The notes beneath the pieces are model-generated. The model saw only the letters and a program-made list of their open reading frames with translations, was not told where the DNA came from and did no database searches. This document shows positions 61,660 through 63,560 of a DNA stretch of 64,000 nt, one piece after another. The first letter of the stretch is position 1, and every line of letters starts with the position of its first letter. Position numbers and translations under genes: made by a program. Location: NCBI RefSeq assembly GCF_012849555.1, contig NZ_CP051685.1, positions 3,720,001-3,784,000 of the forward strand. The letters run 5' to 3'. Source of the stretch: Massilia forsythiae. GTDB taxonomy: Bacteria > Pseudomonadota > Gammaproteobacteria > Burkholderiales > Burkholderiaceae_D.

Positions 61660-61675
61660 CCGCCATGGCGCAGTC

Positions 61676-61869
61676 AATTCGGGGTCAGAGCACATTGGCG
61701 CTGCATTTCGGGGTCAGAGCACTTTGTCGATCAATGTTACGGAAACAAAGTAGCATCCTGCTTCAGAGGGAAGCGGGTGCTCGCGAAACCGGCAGTGTCG
61801 TGTTTCGGCTGCACTGCGCATTGTGCTCTGACCCCGAATCGGCCGTGCAAAGTGCTCTGACCCCGAATT
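61676..61869. repeat. Repeat element: two direct and two inverted GGGGTCAGAGCAC units
   Basis: Four units with the core GGGGTCAGAGCAC: direct at 61676-61694 and 61705-61725, inverted (GTGCTCTGACCCCGAAT) at 61823-61839 and 61849-61869. About 100 bases lie between the two halves, so the whole is a large imperfect inverted repeat with doubled ends. It ends four bases before the SMR gene stop. This family resembles REP-type elements mobilised by RAYT proteins; no such gene is in the window. Confidence 0.75.
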
Positions 61870-61872
61870 TCG

Positions 61873-62229
61873 TTAATGTCCCGACGACAATTTCATCAAC
61901 ACCAGCCCGCCGACGATCAGCGCGGCGGCGCACAGGCGCATGGGCGTGACGGCTTCGCCCAGCACGACGATGCCGACGGCAAAGCTGCCGATGGCGCCGA
62001 TGCCGGTCCAGACGGTGTAGGCGGTGCCCAGCGGCAGGCTGCGCATCGCGACCGACAGCAAGCCGAAGCTGGCGGCCATGGCGGCCAGGGTGACGAGCGA
62101 GGGAGCGAGCCTGCCGAAGCCGTCCGACAGTTTGAGCGTGTAGGCCCACACGACTTCGAGCAGGCCGGCGGCAAGCAACAGGATCCAGGCGAGGTTGGCG
62201 GACAGGACGGAAGTGAAATGCGAGCGCAT
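61873..62229 (-). CDS. gdx: SMR-family guanidinium exporter (Gdx/SugE type)
   Basis: A 118-residue, four-helix small multidrug resistance protein. The essential Glu of helix 1 (residue 25) sits in GLLEVVWAYTLKLSDGF, the pattern of the Gdx/SugE branch, which exports guanidinium rather than large quaternary ammonium ions. A two-hairpin guanidine-II riboswitch lies just upstream, independently supporting this substrate. Start ATG follows AAGGAG. Members act as antiparallel dimers in the inner membrane, exchanging guanidinium for protons. Confidence 0.9.
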   Translation of the reverse strand: MRSHFTSVLSANLAWILLLAAGLLEVVWAYTLKLSDGFGRLAPSLVTLAAMAASFGLLSVAMRSLPLGTAYTVWTGIGAIGSFAVGIVVLGEAVTPMRLCAAALIVGGLVLMKLSSGH

Positions 62230-62242
62230 GCGGCTCTCCTTG

Positions 62243-62297
62243 CAAGAGCCGGGCCGTCCCGGACATGTTCCACGATGGGGGAGGCCGTCCTCCCGGT
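62243..62297 (-). ncRNA. Guanidine-II (mini-ykkC) riboswitch
   Basis: On the minus strand two GC-rich hairpins each close an ACGG tetraloop: GGGAGG-ACGG-CCTCCC (62294-62279) and CCGGG-ACGG-CCCGG (62262-62249), with a 16-base linker. Paired hairpins with ACGR loops define the guanidine-II class, in which guanidine-bound loops pair and free the ribosome site. Here AAGGAG of the SMR gene follows the second hairpin by about nine bases, so control is most likely translational. TATAAT at 62311-62306 lies just upstream. Confidence 0.9.
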
Positions 62298-62305
62298 GTG
62301 ATGCG

Positions 62306-62311
62306 ATTATA
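62306..62311 (-). promoter_or_regulatory. -10 element of the riboswitch-SMR transcript
   Basis: A perfect TATAAT on the minus strand lies 11 bases upstream of the first riboswitch hairpin and overlaps the stop codon of the SBF gene. The -35 region, inside that gene, is not close to consensus. It would allow the SMR gene to be transcribed separately. Confidence 0.55.
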
Positions 62312-63350
62312 GCGGCAGACCGCGCTGCACCGCGTCCGCCTCGAGCGCGCGCGCCTCCGCCTGGCGCGCCCAGCGCGCCGCCAGCACCGCGCACACCATC
62401 AGCTGGATCTGGTGGAACAGCATCACCGGCAGGATCACCATGCCCAGCGCGCCCGGCGCGAACAGCACCTTGGCCATCGGTACGCCGCTGGCCAGGCTTT
62501 TCTTGGAGCCGCAGAACACGATGGTGATCTCGTCCTCGCGCGAAAAGCCGAGGCGGCGGCTGGTCCAGGTAGCCAGCGCCAGCGCCACCGCCAGCAGCAG
62601 CGCGCACACCACGCCCAGCGTCACCAGCGAGCCGGGCGACAGCTTGTGCCACAGGCCCTCGTTGACCGATTCGCTGAAGGCGGTGTACACCACCAGCAGG
62701 ATCGAACCCTGGTCGACGATCTTCAGCATCGGCTTGTGGCGGTCGACCCATTTGCCGATCCACGGGCGCAGGAACTGGCCGGCCAGGAAGGGCAGCAGCA
62801 GCTGCTCGACGATGCTCCACACCGCATCCAGCGTCGAGCCGGGGCCGTGCGCCGAGCCGCGTACGATCAGGGTCGACACGAGCAGCGGCGTGACGAAGAT
62901 GCCGACGAAGTTGGAGGCCGAAGCGCTGCACACCGCCGCCGCCACGTTCCCGCGCGCCATCGAGGTGAAGGCGATCGAGGACTGCACGGTCGAGGGCAGG
63001 GTGCACAGGAACAGGATGCCGATGTACAGGTTGGCGTCGATCACGCTGCCGGCCAGCGGCTTCAGGGCCAGCCCGAGCAGCGGGAACATGACGAAGGTCG
63101 AGGCCAGCACCAGCAGGTGCAGGCGCCAGTTGGTCAGGCCGGACAGCATGGCTTCGCGCGACAGCTTGGCGCCGTGCAGGAAGAACAGCAGGCCGATGGC
63201 GACCGTGGTCACCTTGCCCAGCACCACCGCGGTCTGGCCGCTGCAGGGCAGCACGCTGGCGAGCGCGACGGTGCCGAGCAGCCACAGGGTGAAGGTGTCG
63301 GGCGCCAGGCGGCGCAGGGAAGCGGTGGACCGTTGCAGGAAGGATGGCAT
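62307..63350 (-). CDS. SBF-type (bile acid:sodium symporter family) transporter
   Basis: A 347-residue membrane protein with about ten helices, of the SBF-like/YfeH type. Recognisable segments are FLHGAKLSREAMLSGL near residue 58, LCTLPSTVQSSIAFTSMARG near 115 with the family's helix-break polar residues, and FCGSKKSLASGVPMAKVLF near 282. The family name comes from animal bile-acid carriers; the bacterial substrate is unknown. It lies upstream of the SMR gene on the same strand with the riboswitch between, so a shared physiological context is possible. Confidence 0.88.
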   Translation of the reverse strand: MPSFLQRSTASLRRLAPDTFTLWLLGTVALASVLPCSGQTAVVLGKVTTVAIGLLFFLHGAKLSREAMLSGLTNWRLHLLVLASTFVMFPLLGLALKPLAGSVIDANLYIGILFLCTLPSTVQSSIAFTSMARGNVAAAVCSASASNFVGIFVTPLLVSTLIVRGSAHGPGSTLDAVWSIVEQLLLPFLAGQFLRPWIGKWVDRHKPMLKIVDQGSILLVVYTAFSESVNEGLWHKLSPGSLVTLGVVCALLLAVALALATWTSRRLGFSREDEITIVFCGSKKSLASGVPMAKVLFAPGALGMVILPVMLFHQIQLMVCAVLAARWARQAEARALEADAVQRGLPL

Positions 63351-63489
63351 GAGCGGCAGGAGACGTGGGGCGGGAGGGACGCCGGACCCATGATTCTAGC
63401 CTCATCCGCGCCGGCGCGCAGCAGCGGCGGCGGCGCTGTTCGCGTTCGTGCTCGGGCTCGTGCCCTACCGATGAAAACCGCCCGTATTC

Positions 63490-63530
63490 CGCCCTGACCC
63501 CGAATCGGCATTCGGCCCTGACCCCGAATG
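63490..63530. repeat. Two tandem CCCTGACCCCGAAT units
   Basis: CCCTGACCCCGAAT occurs at 63492-63505 and 63516-63529, a 24-base period, in the same orientation as the inverted units at 61823-61869. With the copies at 61676-61869 they bracket the SMR-SBF gene pair. Confidence 0.65.
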
Positions 63531-63560
63531 GCGGTGCGGTGGTTTTGTGTGACAAACTTA

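Follow-up and report, generated by a model that had tools for sequence, protein, structure and literature searches.

The guanidine-II riboswitch class is defined by two G+C-rich hairpins with ACGR tetraloops (PMC5486947). In Escherichia coli, the element of this class (mini-ykkC, RF01068) places two ACGR hairpins directly before the Shine-Dalgarno (SD) sequence of gdx/sugE, and this SD is reported to be exposed upon ligand binding (PMC13064478). The same source describes a 20-bp deletion across P2 that accompanies constitutive gdx expression. In Gloeobacter violaceus, P2 lies near the ribosome site and an exclusive stem loop overlaps both, and an overlap model for the switch was proposed there (PMC5486947). 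On the protein side, W16 is reported to be a conserved residue of Gdx transporters that is Gly or Ala in Qac transporters, and Gdx proteins are reported to move some substituted guanidiniums (PMC7695847).

The window, by which we mean the whole 64-kb stretch of DNA that was analyzed, contains one element of this class. On the minus strand, positions 62296-62249 match the Rfam guanidine-II covariance model, RF01068, over the model's whole length (positions 1-48) with 39.1 bits and an E value of 0.00028, against a gathering score of 32 bits; as a positive control, the same scan detects the E. coli gdx riboswitch with 50.4 bits. RF01068 is the sole Rfam family above its own cut-off in the window, the match is the only one for this model in the 6.37-Mb genome, and the guanidine-I and guanidine-III riboswitch models have no match in the genome. 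Both hairpins are G+C-rich and both loops read ACGG, whereas the E. coli gdx loops read ACGA and ACGG. P1 (GGGAGG-ACGG-CCTCCC) spans 62279..62294 with its loop at 62288-62285, and P2 (CCGGG-ACGG-CCCGG) spans 62249..62262 with its loop at 62257-62254. The aptamer lies by the ribosome site, and the start codon of the SMR gene follows 19 nt after P2. The original prediction, which read two ACGG hairpins ahead of an SMR gene and proposed a search with the guanidine-II model, is borne out in the minus-strand sequence and by that search, but the aptamer itself occupies 62249-62296 and not the full 62240-62300 that had been proposed for the search.

The position of the element is shared by relatives. 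In the genus, 14 of 15 RF01068 matches are closely followed by an SMR gene. At the class level, 13 of 20 RF01068 loci have no SMR gene inside the stretch retrieved. One candidate in our set, locus L013, was rejected as a probable false positive: it scores 31.6 bits, below the cut-off, falls within an open frame of 640 aa, and shows no SMR gene anywhere in its 3-kb locus.

The gene downstream (61873..62229, minus strand) encodes a 118-aa protein of the SugE type, which we call gdx. The earlier identification as an SMR gene is confirmed by PF00893, with 92.9 bits against a cut-off of 23.7. The best of the 21 NCBIfam SMR models is NF008512 (SugE), with 123.7 bits, and the remaining models score at most 68 bits. 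Because 123.7 falls short of the NF008512 cut-off of 126, we place the protein in the Gdx subtype but outside the exact equivalog. Its best solved relatives are 8vxu (98.5 bits) and 6wk5 (95.9 bits), and EmrE scores 43.8. The 6wk-series entries are named Gdx-Clo (PMC9574504). Judging from the alignment, 8vxu appears to be a Gdx-Clo chain as well, and it differs from 6wk5 in the aligned part by Thr at position 60; a literature search found no paper on 8vxu. The window protein shares with Gdx-Clo the subtype residues G10, W16 and K101 (Gdx-Clo numbering), where Qac-like proteins of the genus mostly have I, G and N. Its identity to E. coli Gdx is 59%, and it differs from that protein by a 12-residue N-terminal extension and by Thr60; this position is Ala in both E. 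coli Gdx and 6wk5, and Thr in 8vxu. At the gdx start (62229-62194), the protein begins 12 residues ahead of the usual MAW/MSW start, which is the one found behind the other 27 leaders of the top clade in the genus. By analogy with published work on the class, the gdx product would export guanidinium in exchange for H+.

The original prediction held that annotation as a quaternary ammonium or multidrug resistance gene would be misleading. This is fair, and NF008512 is itself titled ‘quaternary ammonium compound efflux SMR transporter SugE’. However, some substituted guanidiniums are reported substrates of Gdx proteins (PMC7695847), and overexpression of sugE reportedly gives narrow resistance to quaternary ammonium compounds, according to the title of one study. 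A stronger version of the drug-pump reading would make the SMR gene a Qac/EmrE-type multidrug transporter and the riboswitch match a coincidence. PF00893 alone denotes the multidrug family, and position 60 holds Thr in place of the Ala of E. coli Gdx and 6wk5, but the Gdx-Clo and SugE scores far exceed those for EmrE and Qac, the protein carries the Gdx-type residues G10, W16 and K101, and 14 of the 15 riboswitch matches in the genus precede such SMR genes. We therefore consider a coincidental match extremely improbable. A guanidine-II riboswitch directly before a guanidinium exporter gene, as originally predicted, is supported by the RF01068 match, the subtype residues, the similarity to known Gdx proteins and a conserved switch platform. 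The arrangement is real and mostly textbook, and the class is already known. It settles the annotation of the window gene as probably a guanidine-induced guanidinium exporter rather than a general drug pump.

Comparison across the genus shows which protein features go with the riboswitch. A search of 62 genomes gave 132 SMR matches in 59 of them, and we examined 110 of these, leaving out the 22 lowest-scoring. W16 is present in 82 of the 110 proteins. A top clade of 28 proteins combines W16 with Thr60, and 25 of the 28 genes have ACGR hairpins upstream, versus 2 of the 82 other SMR genes examined. Position 60 separates these groups completely, with Thr in 28/28 top-clade proteins and Ala in 82/82 others. 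The remaining W16 proteins, 54 with Ala60, have an ACGR hairpin upstream in a single case. The helix-1 LEVVWA pattern pointed out in the original prediction thus marks the Gdx subtype but fails to mark riboswitch control. The hairpins and the pattern, which had been presented as two agreeing lines of evidence, are less independent than stated, since the LEVVW-type W16 is common to the 54 Ala60 proteins of which one has a hairpin. The same genome carries a second Gdx-type SMR gene with W16 and Ala60 (L166, G000:C1:5732235-5732943), 54% identical and with no guanidine-II hairpins upstream.

We also asked whether Thr60 marks Gdx proteins under riboswitch control in general and rejected this rule, as it holds in the genus sample and fails outside. 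Of the seven guanidine-II loci at the class level that include an SMR gene, five have Ala60 and two have Thr60; E. coli Gdx has Ala60 as well. Of 10 elements with a six-base P1 loop, two stand before genes for Val60 proteins and one before a gene for a Met60 protein. One set of named loci is biased toward Thr because the peptide pattern used for retrieval contained Thr.

Folding the leader provides a potential mechanism. The SD, AAGGAG (62236..62241, minus strand), stands where the original prediction placed it, ahead of the ATG at 62229. It can be enclosed by a hairpin, GGCUCUU-gcaag-GAGAGCC (62232..62250), assigned from predicted folds and opening cost, which shares 62250-62249 with P2 and has a further pair, 62251-62231. 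The 5′ arm of this SD-hiding hairpin draws on the 3′ strand of P2, which makes the hairpin and P2 mutually exclusive in the predicted fold. When the leader is folded alone, P1 and the SD-pairing hairpin are predicted to form and P2 is almost absent. The full SD-hiding hairpin has a predicted energy of -10.0 kcal/mol, and the remnant left when P2 is formed has -3.3. With P1 and P2 imposed, opening the SD core is predicted to take 3.86 kcal/mol instead of 7.04, and a 5-bp hairpin is predicted to persist across the SD. Imposing P1 and P2 itself costs a predicted 4.16 kcal/mol, which the ligand would have to supply.

This behavior is conserved in the genus. We analyzed the SD opening cost in 24 of the 28 top-clade leaders, leaving out L115, in which the SD was assigned within P2, and L119, L121 and L127, in which no P1 was found. 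With P1 and P2 formed, the mean opening cost falls from 6.4 to 2.8 kcal/mol, compared to 3.5 to 3.1 kcal/mol for the same leaders with shuffled tails. The drop exceeds 1 kcal/mol in 22 of the 24 leaders and is absent in L103 and L122. Because the leaders are related, the 24 are not independent, and the low Wilcoxon p-value overstates their independence.

Taken together, these observations make it very likely that the element is a translational guanidine-II ON switch for the guanidinium/H+ exporter gene gdx, transcribed from a start just before P1. This model builds on features that we observe here: the aptamer, the Gdx subtype, the hairpins that exclude each other by folding, and their conservation. 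Transcription would begin just ahead of P1. As long as guanidine is absent, a 7-8-bp hairpin that masks the SD would hold the 3′ strand of P2. Guanidinium would stabilize P1 and P2 through kissing ACGG loops, P2 would reclaim its strand, and the hiding hairpin would lose most of its stability (about -10 kcal/mol before, -3.3 after), so that the SD would be exposed and gdx translated. Ligand binding, loop kissing, the direction of the switch and guanidinium export are drawn in this scheme from published work on the class and would apply here by analogy. Exposure of the SD upon P1/P2 formation is the known ON-switch design of the class. The layout also resembles that of G. violaceus (PMC5486947), but the two differ in overlap distance and sequence, and the Massilia fold is a prediction.

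Upstream of the aptamer, a TATAAT box (62306..62311, minus strand) is a probable dedicated -10 box, as suggested by its sequence and its conservation in the genus. Of 25 leaders in the genus, 15 carry a box of the form TANAAT or TATANT at a distance of 9-24 nt upstream of P1, compared to a mean of 0.28 and a maximum of 3 in shuffled sequences. This count favors a dedicated promoter from which transcription starts at the P1 edge. A -35 box was not recognized before TATAAT, and the promoter listing shows no minus-strand promoter there. As the original prediction stated, the box overlaps the stop of the upstream neighbor, an SBF-like transporter gene (62307..63350, minus strand; PF13593 match): TATAAT at 62311-62306 includes its TAA (62309-62307). 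Only 10 nt separate this stop from the aptamer, with no terminator-like site between them, and the two genes could on that basis form an operon in which the riboswitch acts on two transcripts, as the original prediction allowed, a joint one and one from its own promoter, and ties the SBF transporter to guanidine. We consider this improbable. The proposed control is translational and would be exerted at the start of gdx, behind the SBF-like gene, so that in a transcript reading through from the SBF-like gene the gdx part alone would be regulated. The SBF-like gene is present in 39 of 62 genus genomes, yet among loci L001-L205 it stands beside gdx in this genome only and adjoins gdx in no relative. 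We found no reason for a functional SBF-gdx pair; the SBF-like gene is not likely to be part of the switch and is probably a mere neighbor.

The surroundings of the two genes also contain a REP-like repeat, TTCGGGGTCAGAGCAC, at window positions 61675-61729, 61817-61872 and 63483-63533, often as inverted pairs. This 16-mer has 65 exact copies in the genome, and a reversed control has none. The SBF-gdx pair has related copies on either side.

Two aspects of the system go beyond the textbook, namely the natural pair of ACGG loops (GG type) and P1-loop variants in relatives that the curated model misses. Among constructs of the E. coli riboswitch, GG was reported to have the highest KD (264 μM, compared to 133 μM for AG and 59 μM for AA), and this combination was termed rare in nature (PMC9300104). 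The window element is thus a natural example of a riboswitch type that earlier work examined in the form of an E. coli mutant construct; by analogy with those constructs, a lower affinity is expected. Among distinct Thr60 leaders, in a non-random sample, the loop pairs are AG in 28, GG in 22, AA in 13 and GA in one; a single other genus contributes 19 of the 22 GG leaders, and these were retrieved with a pattern that permits GG.

A weak loop pair combined with a strong SD-hiding hairpin might also mean that the riboswitch is degenerate, insensitive to guanidine and leaving gdx nearly always off. GG has the weakest affinity reported among the constructs (PMC9300104), forming P1 and P2 costs a predicted 4.2 kcal/mol, and some sister leaders (L119, L121 and L127, with a P2 loop of CCGG or CCGT) do appear degenerate. 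Nevertheless, the GG constructs did bind guanidine in the E. coli work (PMC9300104), the window element has kept both stems, the promoter box and the SD hairpin intact, and GG is retained in 22 distinct sampled leaders, with 19 from one other genus. A degenerate element is accordingly very improbable, and we retain the reading as a functional ON switch. As for the three sister leaders themselves, P1 is altered in addition to the P2 loop, and they are apparently decaying riboswitches.

Other relatives depart from the tetraloop consensus in P1. Eight sister leaders (L102, L108, L109, L111, L113, L116, L118 and L120) have a five-base P1 loop, AACGR (AACGT in L102), and a normal P2, and further leaders with such a loop precede gdx in L227, L228 and L235-L237. 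One P1 pair in the pentaloop group varies between G-C, C-G and A-U, as seen in 10 hand-picked leaders. A six-base loop, mostly CCACGY (CCACGT or CCACGC), was first met in named loci, mostly alphaproteobacterial, and precedes gdx in L019, L024, L030, L034, L036, L049, L054, L065, L067 and L269-L278. In upstream sequence that was shuffled, the pentaloop hairpin occurred in a mean of 0.05 of 18 leaders and the hexaloop hairpin in a mean of 0.02 of 16, both groups having been preselected for the hairpin. Two of the pentaloop leaders, L118 (~1351-1485) and L120 (~1345-1481), also contain a long inverted repeat with a sub-cut-off match to MIR8670 on both strands, which is probably a bacterial palindromic repeat.

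Scans with DNA patterns alone recovered the same association with SMR genes. The pentaloop pattern was found in 11 of 294 family genomes, across three genera, and all 11 elements are upstream of an SMR gene; the hexaloop pattern was found in 10 of 398 genomes of the phylum, in every case 13-27 nt ahead of an aligned SMR start. Reversed control patterns gave some matches in both scans, so the match count proves little and the neighboring SMR gene, present for 21 of 21 elements, carries the proof. For the canonical tetraloop pattern, 28 of the 30 matches retrieved precede an SMR gene, with 17 further matches left out. The RF01068 cut-off was reached by none of 20 chosen loci with a non-tetraloop or a single hairpin and by none of 10 hexaloop loci, giving 0 of 30 variant loci overall. 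In a scan of 16 loci at a loose threshold, six scored 24.6-27.2 bits and 10 were unlisted, and the pentaloop leaders that were scanned all stay below the cut-off. A literature search, whose scope did not include the updated consensus figure of PMC12335538, found no description of P1 pentaloops or hexaloops.

We tentatively propose, as a possibility somewhat short of an even chance, that the guanidine-II family is wider than the curated model, with a P1 pentaloop or hexaloop and a canonical P2 in many Proteobacteria. The chief role of P1 would in that case be that of a kissing partner, and such elements may be one-pocket sensors that are less cooperative or differently tuned; the ACGG/ACGG element of the window would be another tuned member. 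The P1-loop variants suggest that guanidine-II control of gdx is more frequent than surveys based on Rfam indicate, and this undercount bears on how guanidine-responsive transporters are distinguished from multidrug SMR genes.
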